A stretch of DNA of 64,000 nt from Arthrobacter bambusae. GTDB lineage: Bacteria; Actinomycetota; Actinomycetes; Actinomycetales; Micrococcaceae. Numbering within the stretch: the first letter of the stretch is position 1; every line of letters begins with the position of its first letter. Shown piece after piece: positions 31,853 through 45,288 of the stretch. Below the pieces are notes generated by a model. The model ran no database searches. It saw only the letters and a program-made list of their open reading frames with translations, and was not told the origin of the DNA. The position numbers and the translations under genes were made by a program. Location of the stretch: the NCBI RefSeq assembly GCF_030812595.1, contig NZ_JAUSSZ010000010.1:1-64000 (forward strand), given 5' to 3'.

Positions 31853-31925
31853 GCTTCCTTAGCTCAGTCGGTAGAGCGTTTCACTCGTAATGAAAAGGTC
31901 ATCAGTTCGATTCTGATAGGAAGCT
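31853..31925 (+). tRNA. tRNA-Thr (anticodon CGT)
   Basis: A complete cloverleaf: acceptor GCTTCCT/AGGAAGC, D arm GCTC/GAGC, anticodon stem TTTCA/TGAAA with loop CTCGTAA (anticodon CGT), and T arm ATCAG/CTGAT with loop TTCGATT. CCA is not encoded. The 3' half is the attachment site of the genomic island that follows. Confidence 0.95.
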
Positions 31926-31930
31926 CTGAC
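31887..31930. repeat. attL: tRNA-Thr 3' half
   Basis: A 44-bp segment from the anticodon loop through the acceptor stem and six bases beyond. It recurs without a mismatch at 38565-38608. Integrases commonly use such tRNA 3' ends as core sites, and integration restores the intact tRNA on one side, as seen here. Confidence 0.9.
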
Positions 31931-31969
31931 AGCCCCGCCATTCCAAGGATTTGGCGGGGCTTGCTTTTT
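31931..31969 (+). terminator. Terminator after tRNA-Thr (island side)
   Basis: AGCCCCGCCA / TGGCGGGGCT stem with an 11-base loop, followed by TGCTTTTTC. It directly follows the tRNA and attL core and was presumably brought in by the element. Confidence 0.8.
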
Positions 31970-32066
31970 CATTCCGAACGGGTCTTCCCGCGCGTTCCCT
32001 GAGATTTCGCTCGTCGTACGGCGTCTTCATCACTTTTTCGTCACATTCCTGGCCGGGGCACGTACC

Positions 32067-32497
32067 ATGTGGGTAGGCATACTCGAGGCGAAAACCTACC
32101 CGAGCGAGGAACAGACCGCCACCTTCCAGTTTCTCGCCATCCGCGACCAACTCGTGGCCGATACCCGGCGTCCACGGCCCCATGGAACGCATCCTGCTCG
32201 CCCACACCCTCGACAAACCGCAATGGTCCCGCGTTACGTGGGCCGAGCAGCTCCTCCTCCATTGCCTACACCCACAGCAGCACTAAACACTCGGCTCCCC
32301 TACTCGCGGCCATCGCCTACATCAACTGGTACGGCCGGGGCAGCAAAGCCCACCAATACCTCGAGCTCGCCCTGGAAGCAGACCCCGGCTACCGCCTGGC
32401 CAAACTCAGCGCACAACTCATGGGCAATGGAATGATCGCCGGCTGGAACACGGACAAGAGCACGGCACACCTGACGCGTGGGGTTGACCCGTACTGA
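32067..32497 (+). pseudogene. DUF4192 relic, frameshifted across three frames
   Basis: DUF4192-like sequence continues through all three forward frames in order. The frame from 32067 gives ILEAKTYPSEEQTATFQF; the next piece is MERILLAHTLDKPQWSRVTW (from about 32181); the last is LLAAIAYINWYGRGSKAHQ followed by ALEADPGYRLAKL (about 32305-32400). At least two frameshifts and loss of the N-terminal half show that the gene is dead. DUF4192 is an actinobacterial domain of unknown function. It is the first item of the tRNA-Thr island. Confidence 0.6.
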
Positions 32498-33091
32498 ACA
32501 TGGATCCCTTGACCGGGACTGCTCCAAGGCAAGCTGACAAAACGTCCATCATCGGCGTTCGGACCAGGGACGAGTTGCATCTAATACAAGAACTCGTCCT
32601 CCCACATCAATTAGGCGTTTAAGCAGGTCAGGTCAGCCTTCCTGGGCAATACTCTCTCCGCGACGACTCGAATTGAACTTTTCGCCAATTCCATGCCCTT
32701 TGCCCATGAAAGAGTCGGGGTCGGTGACGTCCGCATGAAGGTAAGCGGCGCCGATCTCGGCGGCGTCATCAATCGGCGGGACCGAGTAGAACACATTGTG
32801 TTTGGGCCCAGGGGTTGTTGCGCTCCATTGCTGGAACGTCGGTCCGAAGCAACTTTCTATCTAAGTGTGGGTCCGTCCTTAACGTCCAAGGCACTAGCCC
32901 GTGACGCGGTTGATGCTCGGACTGCGGCAAATATTGCGGTCACTTGAACGTCTGTTGCCTAGTGAGCATCATCTGTTGTTTAATCGGGAACAATCAGTGA
33001 TCTAGCTCACATGTTTGGGCTGTGACACGCCAACAGTTTGGAATGAGCCGGCCGATGGAGACCGGTGTCCTTCCCCTATCGCTGGAGAACC
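32498..33091. other. Gene-poor island sequence
   Basis: No convincing gene. On the complement strand a 73-codon frame (about 32864-32640) reads, in part, HNVFYSVPPIDDAAEIGAAY and then HADVTDPDSFMGKGHGIGEK. It looks protein-like but has no start codon and matches no family I recognise. It may be another gene fragment. Confidence 0.3.
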
Positions 33092-33505
33092 ATGGGGACT
33101 ACCCTCACCGAACAAGAAGTCATGGAAGCTGCCGGGCAGATTGTGCGGGCCTACGCGGCAATGGATGCCCAAGCCTATTTCACAGCCTTTGATCCGAAAG
33201 CCACCTTCCTCTTCCACAGCAGCCCGTCGCGTCTGGGTAGCAGGCGCGAATACGAAGAACAGTGGGATTCCTGGGTGTCCGGGGGCTGGAAAGTAGTCAG
33301 CTGCCACAGCACCGACCCTTTCGTGCAGCTGCTCGGTAGCGTTGCGATCTTCTCTCATTCGGTGCACACCGTCATCGAAGAGGGCGGCGTTTCAGCCTCC
33401 ACCACGGAACGCGAAACCATCGTCTTTTCCCGCACCGGAGACGCCGGGATCACCGCCGTCCACGAACACCTTTCGCCGACTCTTGCTGAAGGGGCCGAGC
33501 AGTGA
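33092..33505 (+). CDS. NTF2-like (SnoaL/DUF4440-type) protein
   Basis: 137 residues with the cone-shaped NTF2-like pattern: an N-terminal helix pair (TEQEVMEAAGQIVRAYAAMD), then strands with ATFLFHSSPSRLGSRREYEE and a final HEHLSPT. Family members are enzymes or binding proteins with no common reaction; none can be assigned here. The start is ATG 33092 after CTGGAG. Its TGA overlaps the GTG of the permease gene, so they are co-translated, and a role tied to the transported compound is a reasonable inference. Confidence 0.7.
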   Translation: MGTTLTEQEVMEAAGQIVRAYAAMDAQAYFTAFDPKATFLFHSSPSRLGSRREYEEQWDSWVSGGWKVVSCHSTDPFVQLLGSVAIFSHSVHTVIEEGGVSASTTERETIVFSRTGDAGITAVHEHLSPTLAEGAEQ

Positions 33506-34986
33506 CAAACATCAAAAGTTCCGTTCCGGCGTTGAAAGGCAGTGCGCCGCTCATTGAGGTCCGTTCGATTGACTGGGTGCCGGAGAGCGAACGGCATGGC
33601 AAACTCTGGCACCAGGCTCCGCTGTGGTTCTTGGGGAATTTCCAGTACTTCTCGATCCCGATCGGGTTCATCGGGCCTTCTCTTGGCCTGTCCTTGGGAT
33701 GGACTATCGTTGCCAGCATCCTCGGCATCGGTGTCGGAACGATCTTCATGGCGTTCCATGCCTCCCAAGGACCCACCATGGGCCTGCCGCAAATGATCCA
33801 GTCCCGCGCTCAATTCGGCTACCGCGGCGTCGTTGTCCCCCTCATCGCAACGCTGTTCACGTACCTTGCATTCAATGTGGCCGATACTGTCCTGCTCGGC
33901 GATGGCCTCATGAGTTCCTTTGGATGGAACCCCACCGCTATCGCCGTCATCGCTGCGCTGGGCGCGGCTGCCTTGGCCATCTTTGGACATGACTGGCTGC
34001 ACAAGGCCTTCCGAGTCCTGCTATACATCTCATTTCCTCTGATGACGATTCTGACGATAGGGGTGCTCACCGGGAGCGCAGGCGGCGGAGGCCACAGCAC
34101 TATCCAATACGGATTCACCTGGGGGGCGTTCATGGCCCAATTCGCAGCCTCGGCCGCATACAACATCACATATGCACCGTACGTCTCCGACTACTCGCGC
34201 TACCTGCCCTCAAAGACCAAGAGCAGGTCCGTGATCGCCGCGGTATTCTTCGGTGCGTCTTCCTCCGCCATCTGGCTCATCGCATTGGGGGCATGGCTGG
34301 CGATCCAGCTGGGAGCAACCGACGGCCTGGCCGGCCTACAACTGGCAGGAAACAACGTCTTCATCCACCTCGGCGACGCCGCGGCACTGTTCTCCGCCCT
34401 CGCACTCGCAGCCACCATGGGCATGAACGCCTACGGCGGCATGCTCACCGTGCTGACGACCATCGACTCGATCCGGCCCATCAACCCAACCCGGAAAGCA
34501 CGCGTCATAACCATCCTCGTCCTCACCGTCATGTGGTACCTCGCTGCCAGCCTCATCAGCTCCGATTCCGTCACGACCGTCTTCTCGGCACTTACGCTGA
34601 TGCTGTACCTGCTCGTTCCATGGACGGCAACCAACCTGACAGACTACTTCTTCGTCCGCAAAGGCCACTACGCGATCGCCGATCTCTTCAGCACCAAAGG
34701 AATCTACGGGACATGGTCCTGGCGCGGGTTGCTGGCATTCGCTATCGGCCTCGCCGCCGAAATTCCTTTCATGGTGCTACCCCAGATTGGGTCCTGGACC
34801 TACACCGGCCCTCTCGCGAACCTCATCGGCGGAGTCGATATCGCGTGGCTGGTCGGGTTGATCATGACATCGATTGCGTACGTGATATTCAGCCGATCTC
34901 TGGATCGAAACATTGAACACGCCGCTGAAGCGCGAAGCGAGCATCAACTCGGTCACAACGGACAAGCCACTCCCGCAAACACCTAA
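33502..34986 (+). CDS. NCS1-family nucleobase/cytosine permease
   Basis: Membrane transporter of 494 residues with about 12 hydrophobic segments. It matches the nucleobase:cation symporter-1 family, the CodB/cytosine-purine branch: the N-terminal signature around LWFLGNFQYFSIPIGFIGPSL, a GYRGVVVPL loop and YVSDYSRYLP in the middle. Substrates in this family include cytosine, purines, hydantoins, allantoin and thiamine precursors; the exact one is unknown. GTG start, with GAAGGGG upstream, overlaps the NTF2-like gene. It is the only large intact gene of the tRNA-Thr island. Confidence 0.85.
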   Translation: MTNIKSSVPALKGSAPLIEVRSIDWVPESERHGKLWHQAPLWFLGNFQYFSIPIGFIGPSLGLSLGWTIVASILGIGVGTIFMAFHASQGPTMGLPQMIQSRAQFGYRGVVVPLIATLFTYLAFNVADTVLLGDGLMSSFGWNPTAIAVIAALGAAALAIFGHDWLHKAFRVLLYISFPLMTILTIGVLTGSAGGGGHSTIQYGFTWGAFMAQFAASAAYNITYAPYVSDYSRYLPSKTKSRSVIAAVFFGASSSAIWLIALGAWLAIQLGATDGLAGLQLAGNNVFIHLGDAAALFSALALAATMGMNAYGGMLTVLTTIDSIRPINPTRKARVITILVLTVMWYLAASLISSDSVTTVFSALTLMLYLLVPWTATNLTDYFFVRKGHYAIADLFSTKGIYGTWSWRGLLAFAIGLAAEIPFMVLPQIGSWTYTGPLANLIGGVDIAWLVGLIMTSIAYVIFSRSLDRNIEHAAEARSEHQLGHNGQATPANT

Positions 34987-35968
34987 TCCGGGACCCGGGC
35001 TCCCCCAAATGGCGAAGCCGCCCGCGACAGCAACGATTTGTAGCCATGGCTGATTCGGAGTCGCCAAAGTTGTATGAACTTCGGCGGGATGCGTCTCACT
35101 CAACTTGGCAGAAACCATGCCGGAATTGCCAACAACACTGAGACCGGACATCGTGACCTCCAGCCGGAGCTTCGGCGTGGCCCTGCGCCGTTATTCCGCA
35201 TTGGGGGTTTCATGTTCCTAGGCCAGTTCCTCGCATGCAACGTCCTCCTGTCCCTGGCCGAACTGCAGGCTTCCTGCCAAGACCACCCGCATCATGAGGC
35301 ACTGGTGCGGACGGTGAGAACTGCTAAATCCGCCATTCAGACAGCGGCCGTCATGCTGCTAACCGAGCTGAGGCTAGGCGGGAATCACTACCGTACGGCT
35401 TGGCTGTAGGTCCCCTTTTTCCCGCTGCAATCGGCACGCGGTTTGTGAGAGCTTTCCAGGGGTTAGCGCGACGACCGGACTCTCGCCACTGCAGTCGTAT
35501 GTTCTGGCTGCGAACCGCTAGGGCCCGATAGGCCAAATGCGGGCGGTTTCGTCTAGCCTCCGGTGCTTCTCGGGGCGCTGTCTGCAGCCTTATGTGCCGG
35601 TCATTGGTCGGCGACCGCCTCGAAACGGCGTGCTTGCTGCCGGGCCTCTGGGCTCCGGCAGAAACGCGGTCATCGGCACAGCCAGAACTTCGGCTATGTC
35701 CCGTACGCGGCACCGTAGCCGCAACCAGCGACGCTGCCGCGTACGTGACCGGGCCGCCGGCAGGCGGCCGATCCCCTTGGTCCGCATTCAGGGGATGGGA
35801 CCGCCCGCCTACGCACTACCCAAGCTTTGCTGGGCCAGTAACATCCGGAAGCCCGGACATCACTGAAACACAATCCGGAACGCAAGGCGGGAGACATCTC
35901 ATGGCTGCAACGGTTCATTCCAGAGCTTGCAAGTTTCCATGCGGCCTCGGGGTCGTCTATCGCGAACA
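34987..35968. other. Low-information island stretch
   Basis: No gene can be supported with confidence. Codon usage is poor in all frames. A possible fragment of an XRE-type helix-turn-helix protein (VRDIAEVLAVPMTAFL) is readable on the complement strand near 35690, without a start or the rest of the domain. Confidence 0.4.
35212..35409 (+). CDS. Possible small protein, unknown
   Basis: A 65-residue frame starting at ATG 35212 with GGGGG just upstream. It is predicted mostly helical (FLACNVLLSLAELQASCQ, then SAIQTAAVMLLTEL) and has no recognisable domain. It could be a real small gene, a fragment, or chance. It sits alone in a gene-poor part of the island. Confidence 0.25.
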   Translation: MFLGQFLACNVLLSLAELQASCQDHPHHEALVRTVRTAKSAIQTAAVMLLTELRLGGNHYRTAWL

Positions 35969-36083
35969 TGATGGCAGCCCAAGTGCCCCGCTTGTAGCAG
36001 TTCGCACAACGGATGTCGCACTCGGCAATCTCAGCGGCGAGCCGCTCGATGGAGTATCTCTTGGCGCTCCCCACGGCGTAGAC
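35969..36083 (-). pseudogene. HNH endonuclease C-terminal relic
   Basis: The complement strand encodes YSIERLAAEIAECDIRCANC followed by YKRGTW. This matches the C-terminal zinc-binding end of small actinobacterial HNH endonucleases, usually ending CANCHRRxTW; the histidine is replaced by Tyr here. The N-terminal two-thirds are missing, and the lipoprotein gene stop at 36146 lies where they would be. It is a remnant. Confidence 0.5.
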
Positions 36084-36145
36084 CGGCGGCAACGGTCACG
36101 CTCCCGCCGGTTTCGCTCGCCGGATCATTCGACAGGCCAGAACAC

Positions 36146-36571
36146 CTACTGCCCAGGCTTCGTCACATGGGCGACGATGGTCTTAGTCAGGGGGACGCTT
36201 TCCCCTGCTTTCTCCAAACTGGTCACCGTCCAATTCGACAGCAGGAACACGGAGTTGCCCGTGTCTGAATTCCAAACAACATGCTTAAACCCGAGTGCTT
36301 GGAGTTCATCACTGAGAGCCTGTGCATTTTGCCCTGCGGCATCAGCCGGCAATACGGCGGCAGCGGGAGCGGGCGGGGCAGCTGGAGCAGATACGGCAGC
36401 AGGTTCCACTGTTTGGACGACTGTAACTGTCGGCGCAGGAGCGGTGACAGTCTGAGTGGCCGTGACCGTTTGGATGGTGGTCACTGTTGGGGCCGACTGC
36501 GGACTCCCTCCACAACCGGCGAGTCCGACGGCCGATCCTGCAATGCCCAAAGCCAGGACATATTTTTTCAA
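36146..36571 (-). CDS. Small lipoprotein with PASTA-like C-terminal domain
   Basis: 141 residues. The signal peptide ends in the lipobox LAGC (Cys20). A Thr/Val/Pro/Ala-rich spacer follows (about 25-75). The last 60 residues (SDELQALGFKHVVW, then SNWTVTSLEKAGESVPLTK) resemble a PASTA-like repeat, a fold that often binds cell-wall fragments in kinases and penicillin-binding proteins. The start is a TTG with AAGGGG 7 bases upstream. Similar small secreted proteins are common in actinobacteria and their phages. Function unknown. Confidence 0.7.
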   Translation of the reverse strand: MKKYVLALGIAGSAVGLAGCGGSPQSAPTVTTIQTVTATQTVTAPAPTVTVVQTVEPAAVSAPAAPPAPAAAVLPADAAGQNAQALSDELQALGFKHVVWNSDTGNSVFLLSNWTVTSLEKAGESVPLTKTIVAHVTKPGQ

Positions 36572-37040
36572 CTGATCCCCTTATTACAAAACGAGTGATT
36601 TGTACTGCGAACAACGACAGGCGTCGATGCAGGTGCAGTTTCTCATCTTCATCGCAAAACCGATAAACGCGTGCATCGAATATCGGGCGGCAAGCCTTAT
36701 ACAAACGGTTACATTAAAGCCTGATAGTTCGTCAGCATCTCGGCGCCGCCGGGCCGCGTCATTGGATTGCATGACGATGGGAGGCCAAGCCCGAGCTTGA
36801 CCTCCATCCTTATAGCTGCAGATGCGGCTCTAATGACTCAGAGTCGCCACGACAGACCTTTGCCCAAGCGGATCGTAATCCTGCCCCGACTGTTCACCGT
36901 CACCGGACCCGCCTTACGCGAAAGTGACACCCCGCTTTTGGAAAAGTTCAACCTCGTGTTCTTGCCAAGCTTCTTTGTGCGTCGAAAAAAAATACCCACC
37001 GACTTCCCTTCCTATGAAATGCACAACGCGCTTACGCGCG
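36572..37040. other. Non-coding stretch
   Basis: No gene, RNA or repeat was recognised. The sequence is less GC-rich than the flanks, with A/T-rich tracts near 36590-36720 and 36985-37000. Confidence 0.5.
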
Positions 37041-37928
37041 CTACTTGTACCACACAGAAACGCCACCGTGGTAGGAGCACGTTCCCCGATGATTGGCAGA
37101 AAAGGACAGAGTGCCATCGGCACATAGCGCTGTAGCGCCGCTCGCATTCTGCTGGGGCGCTCCCTGGTTTGCTGTTTGTTGGGCTGCCGCAGCTTGATCC
37201 GCTGCTGCTTGCTGGTCGGCTGCCTGCTGCGCTGCCAGCGCGTCGGCGGCTGCCTTGTCCGCAGTCGCCTTATCGGCAGCAACTTTGTCTGCCGCGGCTT
37301 TATCCGCAGCCGCCTTATCGGCAGCAACTTTGTCTGCCGCAGCTTTATCCGCGGCCGCCTTGTCCGCAGCCGCTTTATCCGCAGCAACCTTGTCCGCCGC
37401 GGCTTTATCCGCAGCTGCCTTCTGGGCTACGACCCGTTTGGAGTCCGACTCGGCCAGCCACACCAGACGCTGGTCGCTACCCATGGTGCAGATGAAGAGG
37501 TTGTTGTTGTAATTCCGTGTCTCACTCGGGGTAAGACACGCCGAGTTTGCCGGGTTCGTGGCGGTCGGCGTTGCAGTCACCGACTCCCGGGAGGAAGCCC
37601 CAAAGGCAGACTTATCAGGGACGCTGCCAGGCGTGGCTGTAGCGGAGGCCACACCTGCGCCCACGATGAAAGCAACAACGCCTGCCGCGGCTACCAAGGC
37701 CGCCGACTTCCGATGCGGAAGTCCCACCCAGGATTGCCGCTTGAAGATCAAGGCATACAAACCAGTGATCACAGCCACGAGTCCGAGAAGGAAAAGGAAG
37801 CCGCCGAACCCGGAAGATGCCGTGAAGAGTATGGCCAGGAGCAGCACCAGTGCCGCAACGATCCAGAAAGACTTTGAAGGCTGCCAGCGGCGCTTGGGGC
37901 GCGCTACAGCACTGGGACGATCAAGCAT
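37041..37928 (-). CDS. Membrane-anchored DUF3761 protein with Ala-Ala-Asp-Lys repeats
   Basis: 295 residues. A basic start is followed by two or three membrane segments (about 20-62 and 75-97), then a short cysteine-containing region (ACLTPSETRNYNNNLF). Next come about 13 four- to five-residue repeats of the type AADKA/AADKV (about 165-230), probably one long charged helix. It ends in a DUF3761 domain (TALCADGTLSFSANHRGTCS, then HGG). The repeat helix would hold the DUF3761 domain away from the membrane. Function unknown. The ATG follows GGGGGAA. It is near the right end of the island. Confidence 0.7.
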   Translation of the reverse strand: MLDRPSAVARPKRRWQPSKSFWIVAALVLLLAILFTASSGFGGFLFLLGLVAVITGLYALIFKRQSWVGLPHRKSAALVAAAGVVAFIVGAGVASATATPGSVPDKSAFGASSRESVTATPTATNPANSACLTPSETRNYNNNLFICTMGSDQRLVWLAESDSKRVVAQKAAADKAAADKVAADKAAADKAAADKAAADKVAADKAAADKAAADKVAADKATADKAAADALAAQQAADQQAAADQAAAAQQTANQGAPQQNASGATALCADGTLSFSANHRGTCSYHGGVSVWYK

Positions 37929-38278
37929 TGTTCCCCCATGGAAGATTCGACGCGGTTTGCGCTCGGGTCAGAATAACACCGGAGGCCCATAATCACGGCA
38001 CACATGAGCGCGGCCTTCCGGGCAGCCACTCACCGGAAACACCCACAGGTGCACTGGCGAAGAAACTGGAACCGGCAGCATAAACAGCCCAACTTGGCTT
38101 TGCGTGCTTGCCCGGCCGTGACGGCGCCCGCTGTGCCGTACGAGTTGAGAAAGATTCTCAATAACAAATGGAGGCATCTAAGATTGCCGAGGCTAGCCCC
38201 TGCAGCTGGCGCTTCTCCATCGCCCCTCCGGTCCGGTCGGCGCCGTCACTACTCCCCCCGCTATCGATGAAGTTAGGG

Positions 38279-38467
38279 CTGCCGGACCCCGAATTCCCCC
38301 GCCCGACGCTCCACGACCTTCACCCCACCGCCGTAAGCCTGGCGGTAAGCGCCAGCTTCAACGTCAAAGTCATCCAACGAATCGCCGGACACGCCAGCGC
38401 CACCATGACGCTGGACACCTACACTGGCCTTTCGACCACGATCTTCACGACAGTGCGTGCCGTCTGA
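38279..38467 (+). pseudogene. Tyrosine integrase C-terminal relic
   Basis: The frame reads LHDLHPTAVSLAVSASFNVK, then VIQRIAGHASATMTLDTY. This is the C-terminal catalytic part of a phage-type integrase. The usual HDLRHTA is changed to HDLHPTA, so the second catalytic Arg is lost, while the later GH and the nucleophile Tyr remain. The N-terminal domain is absent in every frame. Its place 98 bases from attR shows that it is the decayed integrase of this island. Confidence 0.7.
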
Positions 38468-38564
38468 ACGATGCTCTAGCTCGGTTGGACTCGAAATAGT
38501 TCGTCACTTTTTCGTCACCAAGCGTGGCAGATTCCCTGCCACCAGAGGACAAAACACTGTGGCT

Positions 38565-38608
38565 GTAATGAAAAGGTCATCAGTTCGATTCTGATAGGAA
38601 GCTCTGAC
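38565..38608. repeat. attR: second copy of the tRNA-Thr 3' half
   Basis: Identical over 44 bp to 31887-31930. The base before the core differs (T here, C in the tRNA), so the repeat starts exactly inside the anticodon. No tRNA 5' half is present, so this copy is not a gene. Confidence 0.9.
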
Positions 38609-38612
38609 CCGA

Positions 38613-38656
38613 AAAAGGCCCGCATCCCAGTATTCACAAGGGATGCGGGCCTTTCT
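38613..38656 (+). terminator. Ancestral tRNA-Thr terminator, now after attR
   Basis: AAAGGCCCGCATCCC / GGGATGCGGGCCTTT stem (15 bp) with an 11-base loop, directly after the attR core. Before integration it would have followed tRNA-Thr. Confidence 0.8.
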
Positions 38657-38861
38657 CATTTCTGGAGGCAACTGCCCGAAGTGCCCTAGCCGTGTACCCG
38701 TTGGTGTACTCAACACCGCTCCCCCGGCGGCCTGCTTCACCATCCCTGCTCAGAGTCTCGGCAGACCCGATTTGGTCGCTTGGCACGCGCGAAGAACCTC
38801 AACGTCCGACAGTGAAAGCTAGTTCCGACACGCCGCATCGAAATTTCATCTGCGGTACAAC

Positions 38862-38888
38862 TTGACAGATCCTTTGGACCCCTACGAT
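38862..38888 (+). promoter_or_regulatory. Promoter of the DUF805 gene
   Basis: Consensus TTGACA (38862-38867) and TACGAT (38883-38888), separated by a short 15-base spacer, lie 34 bases before the DUF805 start codon. Confidence 0.45.
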
Positions 38889-38922
38889 GAAGCGTCATCA
38901 CTCGTCTATTTAGGAGATCCAT

Positions 38923-39396
38923 TTGTCGTACCAGCAGCAACAGACCACTCAGTTCGGCAATGCCGTCCCGCTTTGGGCGCCCTATTACGGCGCGCCCATC
39001 GGCGAGGCAGCACGTCGGTTCTTCAAGAAGTACGCCACCTTCACCGGCCGCGCCAGCCGCAGCGAATACTGGTGGTGGACCCTCATCTCCTTCGTCGTGG
39101 GCATCGTCCTGAACATCATCATGTCAGTGGCCGGCTCCGCTGGGGCGACTGTCAGCGACTCGGGAGCGACTGTCCCGGGACCGGGAATGGCGGTCGGCGT
39201 CATTCTTCTCGTAATTTGGGGGCTGGCCGTCATCGTCCCGTCCCTGGCCCTCACCGTCCGTCGCCTGCACGATGCAAACTTCAGCGGCTGGATGATCCTC
39301 ATCGGGCTCGTTCCGTTCCTCGGCAGCGTGGCACTGCTCATCTTCATGTGCCTTCCGCCCAAGCTCGAAGGCCAGCGGTTCGACGTCCCCGCCTAA
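38923..39396 (+). CDS. DUF805 membrane protein
   Basis: 157 residues with about three membrane segments. The DUF805 (YhaH-like) signature is intact: ATFTGRASRSEYWWWTL near the first segment, SLALTVRRLHDANFSGWM in the middle, and the end LEGQRFDVPA. Function unknown; members are inner-membrane proteins. The start is TTG 38923, 6 bases after AGGAG. It lies just outside the right border of the tRNA-Thr island. A decayed copy of the same gene is at 43885-44290. Confidence 0.85.
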   Translation: MSYQQQQTTQFGNAVPLWAPYYGAPIGEAARRFFKKYATFTGRASRSEYWWWTLISFVVGIVLNIIMSVAGSAGATVSDSGATVPGPGMAVGVILLVIWGLAVIVPSLALTVRRLHDANFSGWMILIGLVPFLGSVALLIFMCLPPKLEGQRFDVPA

Positions 39397-39516
39397 GTCC
39401 ACACCAGAGGACAGCCTGAAGGGTCACTGGTGTCAGAAGGCCTTAGCACGAAGGCTTTGGCTCGCTCCGGCCGGTTACCCGGCGTGCCGAACCCAACGAT
39501 GCCCTGGCAACAGGAT

Positions 39517-39560
39517 AGAAAAGACGGGCGGGAGCTACCGGCTTCCGCCCGTCTTTTCCC
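39517..39560 (+). terminator. Terminator, 36 bases before the next gene
   Basis: AAAAGACGGGCGGGAGC pairs with GCTTCCGCCCGTCTTTT across a short loop, with one mismatch. T-rich end. It should end the DUF805 transcript but sits very close to the next start codon (39595). Confidence 0.8.
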
Positions 39561-39594
39561 TTTTCCAGGGAGAGTCTTCCAAGCCGCCGAACAC

Positions 39595-40284
39595 ATGAGA
39601 GTCATGAACCCCCGCAAGCATTTCGCCCTGCCCTCCGCATTCCTCCTTGCCGCATTGGCCCTCAGCGGATGCCAGCCGGGGTCTCACCCCTCCACCGAAA
39701 CGACGACCAACGCCGCGCCACCGGCAGTTCCCCGGGCAGTTGGAGCCGCTCCCGGGGAACTGCCCTCGGGTGCGTCGGCGACAGCAGTGAAGTCCATCCA
39801 CTCCCCCGGCCTCGTTGCCACCGACGAGCAGCTTGCCGCCGGGCAGTGCTCCGCCAAGACGGTCGACGCCGCCACCGGCGAGTACCTGCCGGACCCGGCC
39901 TGTACCCCGGGAGCCGCAGATCCGGCAGTTACCCAAGAGAACATCGACTCAACCATCTGCGCGAGCGGCTACACGGCCACGGTTCGGCCACCCGCCTCGA
40001 ACACGGATAAGGCGAAGGCCGAGAGCCTGCGCGAATACGGACAGACCGCAATGAAAACCACGGAATACGATCACCTGATCAGCCTGGAACTCGGCGGCAC
40101 CAATTCGGTATCGAACCTATGGCCTGAGCCGAACAAGGCGAGCGCCACGGGCACCACGAACCCGAAAGACGCTATCGAAAACACCCTGCACAAAGCCGTC
40201 TGCACCCACAAGGTCACCCTGTCAGCGGCCCAGAAGGCGATCGCCCACAACTGGGTCACTGCGGTCAAAGACCTCGGTTTGTAG
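39595..40284 (+). CDS. Secreted lipoprotein with HNH-like motif
   Basis: 229 residues. Signal peptide with lipobox LSGC (Cys26), a Thr/Pro/Ala-rich linker, then a domain with paired cysteines (GQCSAKTVDAATG, DPACTPG, TICASG). The motif EYDHLISLELGGTNSVSNLW resembles the HNH/His-Me finger pattern of small secreted nuclease-like proteins (DHL-x-LELGG...NLWPE). Nuclease activity is an inference. ATG 39595 and ATG 39604 are both possible starts; the frame open to 39430 passes through a terminator. Confidence 0.65.
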   Translation: MRVMNPRKHFALPSAFLLAALALSGCQPGSHPSTETTTNAAPPAVPRAVGAAPGELPSGASATAVKSIHSPGLVATDEQLAAGQCSAKTVDAATGEYLPDPACTPGAADPAVTQENIDSTICASGYTATVRPPASNTDKAKAESLREYGQTAMKTTEYDHLISLELGGTNSVSNLWPEPNKASATGTTNPKDAIENTLHKAVCTHKVTLSAAQKAIAHNWVTAVKDLGL

Positions 40285-40354
40285 CTCAACGAAATGCGCC
40301 GAGCGAGGTGCCGGGAACGGAGGCGCGTGCGCGATTCCGCAACGAAGTGGCGCG

Positions 40355-40795
40355 TCAGCTGATGCGCTCGGCGAGGGCCACGATGATTCCCTCCGGGCCT
40401 CTCACGTACGCCATCCGCCAGGCCCGCTCATACTGGCCGATGCCACCGACCAGCGAGTATCCCTCAGCGGCCAGCCGGTCGACGTGTCCCTGAAGATCGT
40501 CGACTTCGAAGGACAGACTGCGCAGTCCGAGTTCGTTGGCCATAGCGGCGGGCGATCCCGGCTGCGGGTCCGGCCTGGTGAAACTGGAAAGCTCCACCCC
40601 TGTTCCCCCGTCAGGTGTTCGCAACATGACGATCTCTGTACGGGAATCAGGGATCGCAATGACCGTATCGATGAACTCGCCCTCCACAAACGTCCGTCCT
40701 TCGACCTCGAGCCCGAGTCCAACGAAGAACGCCGTCACCCGGTCGAGGTCCTCAACTGTGACACCGACGTGGTCAAACCGCATGATGGGCGACAT
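40355..40795 (-). CDS. VOC-family (glyoxalase/dioxygenase fold) protein
   Basis: 146 residues with two beta-alpha-beta-beta-beta modules. The N-terminal MRFDHVGVTVEDLDRVTAFF contains the usual first metal-ligand His, and a Glu lies near the end (GPEGIIVALAE). The family includes glyoxalases, dioxygenases and resistance proteins; the substrate is unknown. The start is ATG 40795, with GGAGG about 9 bases upstream; a longer frame reaches 40831. It lies downstream of the BTAD regulator on the same strand. Confidence 0.8.
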   Translation of the reverse strand: MSPIMRFDHVGVTVEDLDRVTAFFVGLGLEVEGRTFVEGEFIDTVIAIPDSRTEIVMLRTPDGGTGVELSSFTRPDPQPGSPAAMANELGLRSLSFEVDDLQGHVDRLAAEGYSLVGGIGQYERAWRMAYVRGPEGIIVALAERIS

Positions 40796-40855
40796 GGGAT
40801 AAGCCTCCAAGTGTTGGTTTGCACGGCCCACGACGAAGCCTACCGCGGACCAAGG

Positions 40856-41608
40856 TCAGGTCCGGCCGAGGAGCTCCTGGTAAAGCGCGCGGGTCGTAGG
40901 GCTGGGCGAGACGCCGAGCTGTTCCCGCAGAAGCTCGGACAGCTGCACGTACACCGCCAGCGCCTCGGCCAAGTTGTCCTGGGCGGCCAGCGCCTGCATC
41001 AGGTAGCGATGGCCGCTTTCACGCAGGGGGTCCAGGGAGATGAGCCGGCGGCCGGCGCGGACGGCACCAGCGACTTCGGCGCCGCCGACCCCGAGCTCGG
41101 CGGCGGCATAACATTCCAGGGCTCGCAGCCGGATCTCAGCAAGCCGATTGCGGGTCCGGTCGATCCATTCCGCATCCTCTCCAGGCAGGAATCCGCGCTC
41201 GGCGACGAACAAGGCCAGCAGGACCGGTCCCCAGGCACGGGTCCAGTCCTGCTGAGCGACGGCGGACTCCGCGCGGTGGATTGCCTCCACGGCGGCTTCG
41301 AGGTCGATCCACGCATCGGGAAGGTGAAGCTGGACAGTGACGCGTCCATCCACGGCATCCGGACCAAAGACGTGGCGAAGCTTCGAGATCAACGGGTTGA
41401 GGCGTGCATCGGTACCGACGGAACCGGGAGAGCGCCACAGCGCCTCGACGAGCTCGTCGCGAGGCACCTGTCGGTGCCGGTTGACGACAAGGTACGTAAA
41501 CATCAGGCGTCCCTGACGACCGGGCAAGCCCTGATCTAGCCTCAGCCCGTCCCGCTCCACAACCAGCGGCCCGCAGATCTGGATATGCAGCGCTGACTGC
41601 ACCGTCAT
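40856..41608 (-). CDS. BTAD-domain (SARP-like) transcriptional regulator
   Basis: About 250 residues. The N-terminal winged helix of the OmpR/SARP type (LVVERDGLRLDQGLPGRQ, then VPRDELVEALWR) is followed by the helical bacterial transcriptional activator domain (about 95-250). It lacks the ATPase and TPR parts of large SARP regulators. The start is uncertain: ATG 41608 and an upstream frame to 41656 are both open. It is divergent from the DUF1059 gene with 64 bases between, and the VOC gene follows it, so one or both may be its targets. Confidence 0.8.
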   Translation of the reverse strand: MTVQSALHIQICGPLVVERDGLRLDQGLPGRQGRLMFTYLVVNRHRQVPRDELVEALWRSPGSVGTDARLNPLISKLRHVFGPDAVDGRVTVQLHLPDAWIDLEAAVEAIHRAESAVAQQDWTRAWGPVLLALFVAERGFLPGEDAEWIDRTRNRLAEIRLRALECYAAAELGVGGAEVAGAVRAGRRLISLDPLRESGHRYLMQALAAQDNLAEALAVYVQLSELLREQLGVSPSPTTRALYQELLGRT

Positions 41609-41672
41609 GACACCATGATCGCATAAGGTCCTCATCACTTCGGAGGGCCCGAGCAAGGTTCAGGAGGGCGTT

Positions 41673-41831
41673 ATGGCGAAGCTCATCCGATGCGAATGTG
41701 GGTTCGTCGTCCGCGGCGACACCGACGAGGAAGTGATCGGAGCAATCCGCGGGCACATTGCCAGCGACCACCCTGCGCTCCTGCGCGCAGTCAGTCGCGA
41801 GGACCTGCTGGGATGGATCCAACTGGAATAG
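41673..41831 (+). CDS. DUF1059 small protein
   Basis: A 52-residue gene. AKLIRCECGFVVRGDTDEEV, then IRGHIASDHP, match DUF1059, a small family with a Cys-x-Cys-Gly start and a His near the middle that suggest metal binding. GGAGGG lies 5 to 9 bases before the ATG. It is divergent from the BTAD regulator and upstream of the rhodanese gene. Its function is not known. Confidence 0.75.
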   Translation: MAKLIRCECGFVVRGDTDEEVIGAIRGHIASDHPALLRAVSREDLLGWIQLE

Positions 41832-41908
41832 GCAGGCAGAGCCGAACGCCAAGGTATCGCCAATGTTGAGCCAACCCTGTCCCAACAACAGGCGGCCAGA
41901 CTATAGAC

Positions 41909-42769
41909 ATGCTCATCGAACCCAGCTGGCTGGCACATCACCTGCACGATCCTGCGGTCCGCGTCGTCGAAGTGGACGTTTCCGCAACCGCCTACAATCA
42001 ATGGCACATCGACGGCGCCGTACTCTGGAACGTCTATGCCGACCTCAAAGACGAAGGATATCGCCCGGTCGGCAGGCAAACGATCGAACGACTGTTGGCT
42101 CGATCCGGAATCGGTCGGGAATCGACGGTGGTGTGTTACGGCTACGCTCCGGCGCTCGGCTATTGGCTGCTCAAGCTGTACGGTCATGCCGACGTCCGCA
42201 TCCTGAACTGTTCCCGCGATGCCTGGCGCGCCGACGGGCATCCCTGCGTTACGGCGCCGTCCCATCCGGAAGCGGTGCCGTCCCATCCGGAAGCGGTGCC
42301 GTACCAACTCCCCGAACGCGTTCAAAGACTCTTCGCCGACATCCCGGCCGTGCGGCAGGCCATCGGGCGCCCAGGAACAACGATTGTGGATGTCCGTTCC
42401 GAGGCCGAGTACGCCGGTGAGCGGTTCTGGCCATCCGGTGGAATGGAACCGGGCGGGCGCGCGGGCCACGTCCCGACGGCGGTCCACCGACCGTTCGGCG
42501 ATCTCTACGATCAGAAAGGTGCATTCCGCCCGGTCACCGAACTGCGCCAGGCGATGCCCCTGCCAGAGCTCGAGGGAGAAGACGAGCTGATCACGTACTG
42601 CACCGTAGGCGGCCGCGCGGCTACCGCGTGGTATGTGCTCACCGAACTTCTCGGGCGCGAGCGTGTCCGGGTCTATGACGGATCGTGGGCCGAATGGGGA
42701 CTTAGCCCCGACACCCCTGTCGAAACATCGCATGCCATCCCCGCACACAACGGAGGAGTCAACGCCTGA
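41909..42769 (+). CDS. Sulfurtransferase with two rhodanese domains
   Basis: 286 residues. The first rhodanese domain (about 1-115) is the non-catalytic type. The second has the active-site Cys231 in TYCTVGGRA, which carries the persulfide in sulfur transfer, for example from thiosulfate to cyanide or a thiol. Between them the peptide PSHPEAV is duplicated in tandem because of an 18-bp repeat in the DNA (about 42257-42300). The start lacks a good ribosome-binding site. Substrate unproven. Confidence 0.85.
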   Translation: MLIEPSWLAHHLHDPAVRVVEVDVSATAYNQWHIDGAVLWNVYADLKDEGYRPVGRQTIERLLARSGIGRESTVVCYGYAPALGYWLLKLYGHADVRILNCSRDAWRADGHPCVTAPSHPEAVPSHPEAVPYQLPERVQRLFADIPAVRQAIGRPGTTIVDVRSEAEYAGERFWPSGGMEPGGRAGHVPTAVHRPFGDLYDQKGAFRPVTELRQAMPLPELEGEDELITYCTVGGRAATAWYVLTELLGRERVRVYDGSWAEWGLSPDTPVETSHAIPAHNGGVNA

Positions 42770-42848
42770 ACCAAGCGGCGAGAATATGCCCCGCCACTGG
42801 ACGTGGCCAGCCGGGGATCTCGTCATCGGATTGATCTGCCGGCCGGAC

Positions 42849-42879
42849 TTGAAATCCAAACCCGAAGCATGCTTAGGAT
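42849..42879 (+). promoter_or_regulatory. Possible csbD promoter
   Basis: TTGAAA (42849-42854) and TAGGAT (42874-42879) with a 19-base spacer, about 50 bases before the CsbD start. Reasonable match with a long spacer. Confidence 0.35.
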
Positions 42880-42927
42880 ATAGCAACGGCCGTATCGATC
42901 GGCTGCCGATCCAGAGGAGGAAACACC

Positions 42928-43104
42928 ATGGGACTAGGCGACAAGATTGAGAACGCTGCTGAGAAGGCTGGCGGCAAGGGCAAGGAAGCTGCCGGTAACG
43001 TCACGGGCGATGACAGCCTGAAGGCGGAAGGCAAGGCTGACCAGGCCAAGGGCGATTTGAAGCAGGCAGGCGAGAAGGTCAAGGACGCCTTCAAGAAGGA
43101 CTGA
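42928..43104 (+). CDS. CsbD-family stress protein
   Basis: 58 residues: GLGDKIENAAEKAGGKGKEA followed by AGNVTGDDSLKAEGKADQ and a Lys-rich end. This is the CsbD family, small hydrophilic proteins induced by general stress in Bacillus and in many actinobacteria; their biochemical role is unknown. AGGAGG lies 7 bases before the ATG. A strong terminator follows, so it is a single-gene transcript. Confidence 0.9.
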   Translation: MGLGDKIENAAEKAGGKGKEAAGNVTGDDSLKAEGKADQAKGDLKQAGEKVKDAFKKD

Positions 43105-43116
43105 CCCGACCGTACA

Positions 43117-43160
43117 GCGAAGGGCGCATCCCATCGGGGTGCGCCCTTCGTCGGTTTTCA
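43117..43160 (+). terminator. csbD terminator
   Basis: GCGAAGGGCGCA / TGCGCCCTTCGT hairpin with a 10-base loop, followed by CGGTTTTC, 13 bases after the stop codon. Confidence 0.8.
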
Positions 43161-43360
43161 GGCCCGGGAGCGCCGCTCCGCGCCTATGAGCCGCTGGCTC
43201 GGTCCGCCAAGCCTAGGACATAGGCCCGTAGGACATGGACGCCGGACATGGACGCGACGACATAGACGCCGGGCATCCTCGACGGTATTGTGATCTGCAC
43301 CCGGCACTGGTCCGGGAACTGCGACGACGGGGTCGCCGCGGATTCACATTGGGGGATTTG

Positions 43361-43864
43361 ATGACGACGCTGGTCCAGCCCGAGGATGAACTGCAACTTG
43401 CCACCGAGGTCAACACCGTCTCCGATGTGGACGGCGGTGGAGCGTGGTTCAGTTCAAATCATGAAAACGCCAGGCTCGAGGACGCGGGTGACGGGATCCT
43501 CAGGATCACATTGCGCCCAGGTGGCCGAATCACGGCGAAGGACGGAGCTCTCGTCCAGGAGCGGTGCCTCGCCCTGACGGGCGGAACGGGCGCCGCGGTG
43601 CTGCTGCAGGTGATCGGCGTCGAGTCGATCGACCGCGACGCCGTCCGGTTCTTCAGCGAGGCCGTTACGATCAAGGCCTTCGCGATCTTGGGCAGCACGC
43701 CGGTGGACCGTGTCATTGCCCATGCCAGGCACGGGCTCCCGGCACCGCAGTGCCCAACCCGGTATTTTTCCGACGAACAAGAAGCCTTGGGGTGGCTGCG
43801 CGGCCTCCTTGCTGAGCGGGCCCCCGGACCCCAGGAGGGACAAGGGGCCCCGGCATTTGTCTGA
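43361..43864 (+). CDS. STAS/SpoIIAA-like protein (DUF7793 type)
   Basis: 167 residues. After a variable 45-residue start, an alternating strand-helix fold appears: ILRITLRPGGRITAKDG, AVLLQVIGVESIDRDAVRFF, then AFAILGSTPVDRVIAHARHG and CPTRYFSDEQEALGWL. This matches actinobacterial STAS/SEC14-like proteins of unknown function. A GGGGGA precedes the ATG. An upstream open frame to 43235 contains tandemly repeated GGACATGGACGCC-like sequence and is not supported. It converges with the decayed DUF805 copy. Confidence 0.65.
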   Translation: MTTLVQPEDELQLATEVNTVSDVDGGGAWFSSNHENARLEDAGDGILRITLRPGGRITAKDGALVQERCLALTGGTGAAVLLQVIGVESIDRDAVRFFSEAVTIKAFAILGSTPVDRVIAHARHGLPAPQCPTRYFSDEQEALGWLRGLLAERAPGPQEGQGAPAFV

Positions 43865-43884
43865 CTGCCGTGCTGTGGAGCGGA

Positions 43885-44290
43885 CTAAGCGCGACCCGCC
43901 TGCCGTTTCCAGGCTGCGCGGGGGACGTCGAAGCGCTGGCCTTCCGGCTTGGGTCCAAGAAACATGAATACGAGAAGGACGATGGCTCCAAGGATGGGAC
44001 AAGGCCGATCAGGATCATCCAGCCGCTGAAGTTCGCATCGTGCAGGCGGCGGACGATAAGAGCCAGCGACGGGATCAGGGTAGCCAGCGTCCAGATGCCC
44101 GCCAGAACGAAGCCGGCCAACGCCACAGGCCCTGGAGCGGTCGCTCCGGCGTTAACGACGGTCGAACCGTCGGAACCGCCCATCATCACGACGATTTCCA
44201 GAATGAATCCAACAACACCGGAAACCAGGGTCCACAACCAGTATTCGCTGCGGCTCTTCCGGTGGGGACGATCTGCTGCTGATACGACAA
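43885..44290 (-). pseudogene. Decayed DUF805 paralogue
   Basis: A broken copy of the DUF805 gene at 38923. The complement strand starts with AAGGA and TTGTCGTATCAGCAGCAG, the same beginning as the intact gene, then jumps directly to the GRASRSEYW region. About 90 bases are lost in between, and a further 5 bases at the join shift the frame. A second shift, one base missing after GLVPSL, ends the frame again; restoring it gives AIVLLVFMFLGPKPEGQRFD and a stop at 43885. The middle (VRRLHDANFSGWMILIGLVP) is unchanged. Confidence 0.75.
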
Positions 44291-44387
44291 TCGATTTCCT
44301 TCGTGGACGATTGGCAAGGCCCCTGTCTGTTGGCAAGGCCCCTGCTGTGAGCACACCGGAATCATCAGTTTACTTAGCTCTTAAGGC

Positions 44388-44423
44388 AAGAACACCCCGC
44401 ACCGGCAGGTGCGGGGTGTTCTT
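44388..44423. terminator. Terminator between DUF805 relic and aldo/keto reductase
   Basis: AAGAACACCCCGCACC (44388-44403) and its exact complement (44408-44423), a 16-bp stem with a 4-base loop. It can serve the reductase gene on the complement strand. The bases TTGGCAAGGCCCCTG are also repeated twice nearby (44310-44345). Confidence 0.8.
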
Positions 44424-44448
44424 GTTGGGAAACGACGCGAGTCGGAAA

Positions 44449-45288
44449 CTATGCGAAGTCTGAAACTGCCGGATCCGGTCCGATGCGGCCCTCGGCGCCT
44501 CGGTCCAGGCCGTTAATGGCCGCAATGTCGGCCTCATCCAAGGTGACGCCAAGTGCAGCGAAGTTCTCCTGGATCCGGGACTCGGTCACGGACTTGGGGA
44601 TCACGACGTTGCCGATCGCCAGGTGCCAGGCGATAACCACCTGCGCCGGAGTGGCGTCGTGCTTGGCAGCGATCTGGACGACGGTGGCGTCCTCGAGGAG
44701 CTCGCCGCCCTGGCCCAGAGGCGACCAGGCCTGCGTCAAAATGCCGCGGGCGGCAGCGAACTCACGCAGTTCCGACTGGTTGAAGAACGGATGCAGTTCG
44801 ATCTGGTGGATGGCCGGCACAACGCCGGTCTCGTCGATCAGGCGCTGCAGGCCCTCCTTGCTGAAGTTGGAGACGCCGATGGACTTCACGCGTCCGCGCT
44901 TCTGGAGCTCAATGAGCGCCTTCCAGGTGTCCACGAACTTGTCCTGCTTGGGCTGCATCCAGTGAATCAGGTACAGGTCAAGGGTTTCCAGGCCGAGACG
45001 GTTCATGGATTCTTCGAAAGCGGCGAGCGTGGACTCGTAGCCTTGGTCCGCGTTCCACAATTTGGTGGTGACGAAGATTTCCTCGGGCTTGAGGCCGGAG
45101 GATGCGATGGCGCGTCCCACGCCGGCCTCGTTGCCGTAGATCTTGGCGGTATCAATGTGGCGGAAGCCGGCGTCGAAGGCCTGACGCACAACCTTTTCGG
45201 CTACATCGTCCTCAACCTGCCACACCCCGTAGCCGAGCTGGGGGATGGAGTTGCCGTCGTTAAAAGTAAGGTTCGGTGACGAAGTCAT
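44449..45288 (-). CDS. Aldo/keto reductase
   Basis: NADPH-dependent oxidoreductase with a TIM barrel, 279 residues. The tetrad is visible: Asp in HIDTAKIYGNE, the Tyr of the same motif, Lys in VTTKLWN and His in YLIHWMQ. The C-terminal VIPKSVTESRIQEN binds NADPH. It resembles 2,5-diketo-D-gluconate reductases, but these enzymes are promiscuous. The start is ATG 45288. Probably monocistronic, ended by the hairpin downstream. Confidence 0.9.
   Translation of the reverse strand: MTSSPNLTFNDGNSIPQLGYGVWQVEDDVAEKVVRQAFDAGFRHIDTAKIYGNEAGVGRAIASSGLKPEEIFVTTKLWNADQGYESTLAAFEESMNRLGLETLDLYLIHWMQPKQDKFVDTWKALIELQKRGRVKSIGVSNFSKEGLQRLIDETGVVPAIHQIELHPFFNQSELREFAAARGILTQAWSPLGQGGELLEDATVVQIAAKHDATPAQVVIAWHLAIGNVVIPKSVTESRIQENFAALGVTLDEADIAAINGLDRGAEGRIGPDPAVSDFA

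Follow-up and report, generated by a model that had tools for sequence, protein, structure and literature searches.

The window (the whole 64,000-nucleotide stretch of Arthrobacter bambusae DNA analysed here) harbors a tRNA-Thr(CGT) gene at 31853-31926 (+, ARAGORN), in which an island of 6.7 kb is sited between two 44-bp repeats. The first repeat, at 31887-31930 (+), represents the attL core, the second, at 38565-38608 (+), the attR core. The two are identical at 44 of 44 positions and directly oriented, and the same core recurs in the intact islands described below. A displaced tRNA 3' fragment, as left by tRNA-targeted tyrosine-integrase islands, is thus present in the form of a direct repeat. 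The complete genome sequence (4.28 Mb, 39 contigs) contains the core in exactly two copies, with no match to its reversed-pattern control, so that the exact att repeats proposed by the initial annotation are well founded. The sole further direct repeat of at least 20 bp found between 30 and 41 kb is coding and has a spacing of 15 bp. The initial annotation also named two observations that would contradict an island, namely a commonly dispersed repeat and the lack of a boundary at the repeat in related genomes. Neither was made: the tRNA-Thr tail is present in at least two copies in only 18 of 206 genus genomes, and intact islands do show a boundary at the repeat. In two of those 18 genomes (G061 and G193) both tail copies are whole tRNAs; these two and G045, also among the 18, are known from tables alone.

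Each core is followed by a terminator-like hairpin on the forward strand. The one in the left arm of the element (31931-31974) folds at -22.8 kcal/mol (z -3.7); the host hairpin, displaced beyond the island (38613-38656), folds at -32.1 kcal/mol (z -6.9). Neither is listed in the terminator scan, because its loop limit is 8 bases; the promoter/terminator scan gave 8 terminator-like sites versus 6.1 in shuffles, i.e. no excess. Judging from the anatomy of tRNA islands, the 3' half of tRNA-Thr(CGT), from the anticodon onward, would be supplied by the element, and the 31931-31974 hairpin would restore termination after the gene.

The interior begins with a relic at 32069-32497 (+), a C-terminal piece of a DUF4192 gene (Pfam E 3.7e-5, below cut-off), which covers positions 274-318 of the 321 in the profile and matches a different locus in G161 at 83% on the DNA level. 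Two intact genes follow: a SnoaL-like gene (33065-33505, +; SnoaL_3, E 8.9e-12) and an NCS1 permease of cytosine/purine type (33502-34986, +; PF02133, E 1e-45), the start of which overlaps the SnoaL stop. The pair is found together at other loci too. A relic at 35599-35709 (-) was detected by tblastn with an ORF of the G051 island (51% over 37 aa, E 1.5e-5) as a fragment of an XRE-type regulator; this ORF is XRE-like as read from its sequence rather than by family search. Further intact are a putative lipoprotein ORF (36146-36571, -; weak lipid-attachment match, E 0.22, below cut-off), which has a 47% homologue in G042, and a putative membrane protein with an Ala/Lys/Asp repeat and a DUF3761 C-terminus (37041-37928, -; 33.7 bits, cut-off 29). 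An HNH-like peptide at 35697-36092 (-) is not claimed (best E 2e-3, no NCBIfam match). Originally, two relics and a single good operon had been counted here; the SnoaL-permease pair is indeed intact, but the count omits the XRE-like fragment as well as the ORFs at 36146-36571 and 37041-37928. Comparison with distant homologues gave dN/dS values of 0.14-0.23 for the DUF3761 protein, 0.13-0.24 for the SnoaL-like gene and 0.08-0.11 for the permease, with synonymous sites of the latter two close to saturation. These values reflect constraint on the gene families over long times and do not bear on selection after the insertion.

The integrase relic and its intact relatives

Inside the right end, at 38258-38499 (+), lies a tyrosine integrase gene in the form of a truncated pseudogene, of which only the last ~80 codons (~302-381 of 381) survive. 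The match to Pfam Phage_integrase (E 0.0038) is below the curated cut-off; compared with six full-length integrases, the relic shows 69-81% identity to their C-termini. The originally noticed change of the HxxR arginine to histidine was confirmed by comparison, as all eight full-length relatives carry HxLRHT and the window HDLHPT (HxxR to HxxH). Further, the homology switches frame at 38431, indicating a frameshift just after the tyrosine. Six of the 39 columns that are invariant in the eight full-length integrases are altered in the relic, as against 0-2 in leave-one-out controls. The relic is thus probably inactive, and the integration genes are lost, as is typical for CIMEs (see below).

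The initial annotation suggested a search for intact integrases and the same core elsewhere, which led to the same tRNA. The eight full-length integrases are 62-100% identical to the query, which was taken from G138. Those at least 74% identical occur in 6 of 206 genus genomes, G138 included; two further ones show 69% and 62% identity. In all eight cases, a copy of this tRNA-Thr 3' end follows ~70 bp after the integrase gene, and the close relatives lie in islands inserted in this tRNA-Thr with the same core repeat. Plasmids yielded one integrase relative (48%) under E 1e-50, and the plasmid DNA search matches of the permease and of repeats only, among the best 20 of 49 records.

The islands of this family are hosted by Arthrobacter/Pseudarthrobacter, and a limited literature search found no description of them. 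Several intact ones carry anti-phage genes, type IIG R-M, DISARM, a TIR protein or NACHT as cargo; in the small ones, the proteins scanned include R-M, NACHT, HNH and recombinase genes. The intact relatives look like defence-carrying islands. Their backbone genes are those of an HTH_17-like protein, which is a candidate excisionase, HNH, a second recombinase and a conserved protein of 217-266 aa, none of which is found in all six islands compared. The 108 ORFs of these six islands (G154 and H5 not included), picked mechanically as non-overlapping ORFs and possibly including spurious ones, were compared with the window island at E 1e-3. It was matched only by the six integrases and one XRE-type ORF, so that no family backbone gene other than the integrase was recognized in it.

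Candidate arm-type sites, empty sites and polarity

All seven islands readable at both ends contain a motif close to CGTCACTTTTTCGTCACC (0-4 mismatches), a candidate arm-type site, at offsets of +149 to +151 relative to the attL core and of -61 relative to the attR core. Between core and arm site, intact islands show inverted repeats that by eye resemble the 31931-31974 hairpin. In the window, the left candidate site CACTTTTTCGTCAC (32031-32044, +) lies at +144 from the core start and has 2 mismatches to the 18-bp motif. The right site (38502-38519, +) is CGTCACTTTTTCGTCACC itself, with 0 mismatches; the distance from the start of its CAC to the core is 60 bp. Apart from deviations of 5-7 and 1 bp, these offsets agree with those of the intact islands; both 14-bp inner motifs are exact. 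Since the motif is kept at +144 and -60, recognizable cis sites survive. By chance, 0.03 occurrences of the left site would be expected in the window at 1 mismatch. A scan of the genus at 1 mismatch gave 17 motif sites in 12 of 206 genomes, 15 of them adjoining the tRNA-Thr core, and none for the reversed pattern. A point against the proposed account is that the left copies of zg-Y844 (4 mismatches) and G154 (3) are degenerate. We hypothesize that the motif serves as an integrase binding site.

Relatives lacking the island were expected by the initial annotation to show tRNA-Thr followed directly by the 38613-38656 terminator. Among 11 chosen genomes, this is clearly the case in two, G220 and G078, in which the hairpin (97% and 95% over 37 bp) directly follows tRNA-Thr and the right-flank gene is found 1.1-1.35 kb past the hairpin, with no island between. 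A model in which the flanks of the island are joined aligns with G220 over 1122 bp (87%), a stretch that spans the tRNA and reaches into the hairpin. The right flank is imperfectly collinear, because the distance from the hairpin to the DUF805 region is 1.35 kb (G220) and 1.13 kb (G078) versus 0.13 kb here. When 38609-39450 was used as a query, 26 of the 59 genomes searched gave matches, away from tRNA-Thr in those compared by position (G022, G016, G023 and others), and no empty site was recognized among the 59. G090, in which 0.94 kb separate the start of the tRNA from the 44449 block, was a candidate for the best empty site; it is not relied on because its hairpin resembles that of attR weakly (score 39 vs shuffle maximum 29).

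Hairpins after tRNA-Thr differ widely between relatives: 60 loci were tried, two gave no tRNA at threshold, and the remaining 58, among them that of the window, contain 51 distinct sequences. The attL-type hairpin follows the tRNA in G161 and G064, which are among the closest relatives and contain neither a second core nor an arm motif within 1 mismatch; similar hairpins are present in G145 and G127. Reading polarity from the type of terminator alone is therefore rejected. The original argument that the ancestral terminator follows attR agrees with G220 and G078, but the attL-type hairpin of G161 and G064 cuts across its use of terminators. Polarity is based on the positions of the candidate arm sites together with G220 and G078. 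A deletion scar of the same insertion in G161 and G064 is disfavoured, because at a synonymous divergence of 0.40-0.61, as measured in two flank genes, chance would hardly leave a 44-bp copy unaltered; a scar there could come from an earlier element.

Proposed history and alternative explanations

Sequence comparison confirms the locus as the remnant of a tyrosine-integrase island in tRNA-Thr(CGT). The decayed island of the initial annotation is supported by empty sites, full-length integrase relatives in the same tRNA and the broken integrase relic. We are highly confident of the following account as a whole. The island would have entered the 3' half of tRNA-Thr(CGT) and replaced it by its own version plus a terminator (attL), so that the original half and the terminator of the host came to lie at its other end (attR). 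Strand exchange would take place in the tRNA core common to both ends, with the intact integrase bound at two arm-type sites of the form CGTCAC-T5-CGTCAC, one within either end. Later, most of the integrase gene was lost, the catalytic HxxR changed and the tail frameshifted, leaving a segment presumably unable to excise itself. Because cores and arm sites remain, an incoming related integrase could in principle move it.

The alternative that survives best, though we consider it rather unlikely, is that the 6.7 kb are not one element. In this view, homologous recombination would have exchanged most of an inserted island for chromosomal genes, and island DNA would be limited to the ends (core, arms, integrase tail). 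The DUF4192, SnoaL-permease and DUF3761 genes do have relatives at other loci in genus genomes, and the integrase tail is the sole backbone gene left to tie the cargo to the element. However, foreign cargo is normal here, since the intact islands of the family carry variable cargo as well, and the initial 1.2 kb of the island, DUF4192 piece included, occurs only once in the genome.

Continued mobility, in which integrases from related islands would act on the remnant in trans and selection or use would preserve its att and arm sites, is improbable. Such mobility would account for the 44/44 core, the right arm without mismatches and the exact inner motifs beside a broken integrase. But a search of this genome at E 1e-90 gave no related integrase, and the exact core is accounted for by a recent insertion: with 0.05 neutral changes per site, the chance that all 44 bp are still unaltered is 0.11, and the decay of the integrase (6/39 columns) fits a similarly small age by our estimate. 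We likewise doubt that the segment is a live passenger among Arthrobacter strains, whose metabolic cargo spreads by borrowing the integrases of defence islands at the same tRNA-Thr.

An origin as a temperate phage or phage satellite, with the other genes since lost, is disfavoured as very unlikely. It could draw on a phage tail/endolysin-type segment beside the same tRNA in G154 (4 of 4 ORFs scanned match such PHROGs families), on distant integrase relatives in actinophages (at most 33.5% identical among the best 20 of 28 records) and on a weak match (E 0.0051) of the repetitive window protein to a virion structural family. Against it, PHROGs searches with six window ORFs assigned the integrase piece to integrases and gave two weak matches for the repetitive protein and none for the other four; no integrase relative was found in 31 viral-contig stretches matching the patterns, and no capsid or packaging genes among the proteins scanned from small intact islands. 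The phage DNA search returned repeat matches only (5 records). Beyond the E 0.0051 match, no capsid-remodelling, packaging or helper-interference genes were recognized by PHROGs in the six window ORFs or in the scanned part of the intact relatives. The satellite-like nature suggested initially is thus not borne out, as the sole phage-structure match in the island proteins scanned is weak and falls in the repeat region.

pSAM2 and pSE101 are actinomycete integrative conjugative elements that have tyrosine integrases and reside in tRNA genes. Unlike such elements (AICE), seven island ORFs and ten intact-island ORFs contain no Rep or FtsK/TraSA-type gene by Pfam; a winged-helix protein of G002 weakly matches replication initiators in PHROGs (E 5.6e-4 to 2.1e-3). 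Another parallel is the CIME, a cis-mobilizable element which, according to PMC5704250, arises by decay of an ICE or IME. The island would work like a CIME, being an integrase-less remnant with att sites kept and intact in sequence. No transfer genes were recognized by Pfam in its seven ORFs or among the small intact relatives scanned, so that a descent from a conjugative or mobilizable element, as for CIMEs, would be hypothetical here. The regenerated tRNA, displaced 3' fragment and tyrosine integrase resemble the tRNA-targeted islands of the Islander database (PMC4383910), except that the integrase is a pseudogene. Similarly, the Dehalococcoides ssrA islands (PMC3146451) show target-gene repeats, no integration module and relatives having one; they involve a serine recombinase and tmRNA instead of a tyrosine integrase and tRNA-Thr.

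Taken together, the remnant belongs to a known kind of element and is itself ordinary as a single remnant. It is a clean example of island decay, in which empty, intact, tandem and relic states of one integrase family are found at one tRNA. It also belongs to a small Arthrobacter/Pseudarthrobacter island family with variable anti-phage cargo and a candidate arm-site pair, and these candidate sites could help to find further members and to test trans-mobilization.

The tRNA-Thr target and its flanks

The tRNA-Thr(CGT) gene lies at 31853-31926, and its last 40 bases together with TGAC (31887-31930) recur with 0 mismatches at 38565-38608. In its own 4.28-Mb genome this 44-bp core is present in exactly two copies, which bears out the exact att repeat described in the initial annotation. 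That annotation would have been undermined by a dispersed repeat. Although the 43-base tRNA tail is matched (at most 3 mismatches) in 172 of 206 genus genomes, just 18 of the 206 contain at least two copies, so the repeat is not a dispersed one; for two of these 18, G061 and G193, the two copies are complete tRNA genes. Both hairpins, one following the tRNA (31931-31974) and one following attR (38613-38656), fold better than 200 of 200 shuffled sequences.

Relatives devoid of the island were predicted to show tRNA-Thr followed directly by the attR-type hairpin, and two of the genus genomes, G220 and G078, do so (97% and 95% identity of the hairpin over 37 bases). They gave the best scores (72 and 68, the next being G154 with 64; shuffle maximum 29) when the 55 bases after attR were compared with the DNA following tRNA-Thr at 58 loci, representing 51 distinct sequences with the window's own included. 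Beyond the hairpin, both genomes go on to match 38778-39423 of the window, the region of the DUF805 gene, at 85-86% and then 40852-42731 at 88-89%. A model of the island-free locus, made by joining the window flanks, gives an 1122-base alignment with G220 (87%) that crosses the tRNA and reaches into the hairpin. The distance from hairpin to DUF805 region is 1.35 kb in G220, 1.13 kb in G078 and 0.13 kb in the window. In a comparison of 38609-39450 with 59 genomes, 26 matched and none was seen to adjoin tRNA-Thr.

In two other relatives, G161 and G064 (88% and 91% left-flank identity), it is the attL-type hairpin that follows the tRNA, with no second core and no arm motif. This may reflect an exchange of terminators or be left over from some other element, and it counts against the island reading. 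In the layout shared with the intact islands, the attL hairpin belongs to the element, since it is positioned between core and arm site.

The right flank (38609-44448) is a mosaic, which likewise counts against the island reading. G220 and G078 are collinear with it over the DUF805 region and 40852-42731; over 39507-40285 and 42844-43814 the collinear genomes are G161, G064 and a further relative, G012. Several pieces sit at other places in other relatives. A stretch 72% alike to the DUF805 gene (38923-39396) lies inverted some 5 kb from it, at 43921-44255. In 16 of 20 relatives a conserved block starting at 44449 is reached, separated from the tRNA by variable DNA of 0.9 to about 15 kb.

Integrase relic and candidate arm sites

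The window relic corresponds by homology to the C-terminal ~80 residues of a 381-residue tyrosine integrase. As initially annotated, the arginine of its catalytic HxxR is changed to histidine (HxxH); the tyrosine codon is retained and the frame is shifted at 38431. Full-length relatives at least 74% identical to the G138 query are encoded in 6 of 206 genomes (query included), and a seventh match, in G148, has 46% identity. Two further relatives come from named records, Arthrobacter sp. zg-Y844 (69%) and H5 (62%), and neither has an internal stop. The suggested search for intact integrases and the same core elsewhere was productive: in all eight close relatives a copy of the tRNA-Thr tail follows about 70 bases behind the integrase. 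Seven other named-record matches (28-48% identity) lie near tRNA-Phe (five), tRNA-Ser (one) or no detected tRNA (one). Among 39 columns invariant in the eight full-length proteins, the relic is altered in six; leaving out each of the eight in turn gives 0-2.

In the seven islands whose two ends can both be read, a candidate arm motif near CGTCACTTTTTCGTCACC occurs at each end, with its CAC +149 to +151 from the attL core and -61 from the attR core. For H5, whose tRNA side falls outside the stretch examined, the right end alone is readable; its motif is likewise at -61. Right-hand sites have 0-2 mismatches and left-hand sites 0-4, the worst left sites being those of zg-Y844 (4) and G154 (3). 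The window has the motif at +144 (2 mismatches) and -60 (0 mismatches), with the 14-base centre exact at both ends; by chance, 0.03 window matches are expected at 1 mismatch. At 1 mismatch, the 18-base motif finds 17 sites in 12 of 206 genus genomes and its reversed pattern none. Fifteen of the 17 adjoin a tRNA-Thr core; the other two (G149 and G094) represent one shared site with no core nearby. Judged from sequence, this shared layout of arms and core places the window island into the family.

As a control served a core-bounded 4.4-kb segment of genome G152 (L168, 3859 to ~8318 of the reverse complement), which has exact core repeats at the same tRNA. Its best site at either end has at least 7 mismatches, no arm motif is present, and its ORF list holds no match to the family integrase. 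It may likewise be an island without an integrase, but from a separate family.

Intact islands and their cargo

Measured core to core, the intact islands span 7.5 kb in zg-Y844, 9.2 kb in Arthrobacter ipis IA7 (G002), 9.6 kb in Pseudarthrobacter sulfonivorans RIT817 (G197), 12.0 kb in Arthrobacter sp. EPSL27 (G124), 31.4 kb in G051, 31.8 kb in G154 and 32.0 kb in Pseudarthrobacter sp. AL07 (G138). G154 (stretches L109, L110, L111 and L040) has a tandem arrangement of tRNA, a 38.7-kb segment, a third core and then the family island; the tRNA-side segment, in which four ORFs were scanned, carries phage tail and endolysin-type genes.

Judged by protein similarity, the integrase is common to all six islands compared (those listed, G154 aside). 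An HTH_17-like protein (22 bits, under the Pfam cut-off of 27), a candidate excisionase, occurs in G002, G197, G124 and G138, and an HNH-type protein in G002, G197, G124 and zg-Y844. A second tyrosine recombinase is present in G002, G197 and zg-Y844, with a short piece in G051. Four islands (G124, G138, G051 and zg-Y844) share a conserved protein of 217-266 residues, encoded just upstream of the integrase (L112:6256-6906 in G124, and homologues); the G124 copy has no Pfam match, and the protein is possibly a directionality or control factor.

Type IIG restriction-methylation enzymes are among the cargo of G002, G197 and G124, the last of which also carries a NACHT protein. G051 has a TIR (PDC-S35) protein and, like zg-Y844, PDC-M02A candidates. 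The G138 island (L103/L104) encodes DISARM DrmD, DrmMI, DrmA and DrmB and a defence-type helicase. No phage structural gene and no conjugation gene was found among the proteins scanned, which cover the large islands in part and exclude the cargo of G154 and H5. No published description of the family turned up in a limited literature search, which weakly suggests its absence from print.

Decay and age of the window island

Intact genes of the window island encode a SnoaL-like protein, an NCS1 permease, a putative lipoprotein and a repeat-rich protein with DUF3761; relics are a DUF4192 C-terminus, an XRE-type fragment and the integrase tail. The SnoaL-permease pair also occurs together at other loci in relatives, G012 and G159 among them. 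When 108 ORFs from the six intact islands were compared with the window island, only the integrases and one XRE-type ORF matched.

Other decay states exist as well, since three genomes (G088, G011 and G156) have the family left end, and the 19-40 kb examined contain neither another core or arm nor an integrase. The left ends (core and arm motif) of G011 (L197) and G156 (L198) are not accompanied by a tRNA 5´ half and may be orphan island ends, tandem junctions or rearrangements.

CIMEs, as characterized in PMC5704250, have lost integration and transfer genes and kept attL and attR. The anatomy of the window island fits this, a likeness read from sequence that claims no CIME membership. Dehalococcoides ssrA islands without an integration module (PMC3146451) are a close parallel to the remnant.

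In two flank genes, the divergence at synonymous sites between the window and the close species G012, G064 and G161 amounts to 0.34-0.61. Under neutrality, a 44-bp copy would escape any change with a probability of 0.11 if there were 0.05 changes per site, and of 0.012 if there were 0.1. We infer that the insertion postdates the split from these three species and was followed by loss of the integrase, which fits an exact core beside a decayed integrase.
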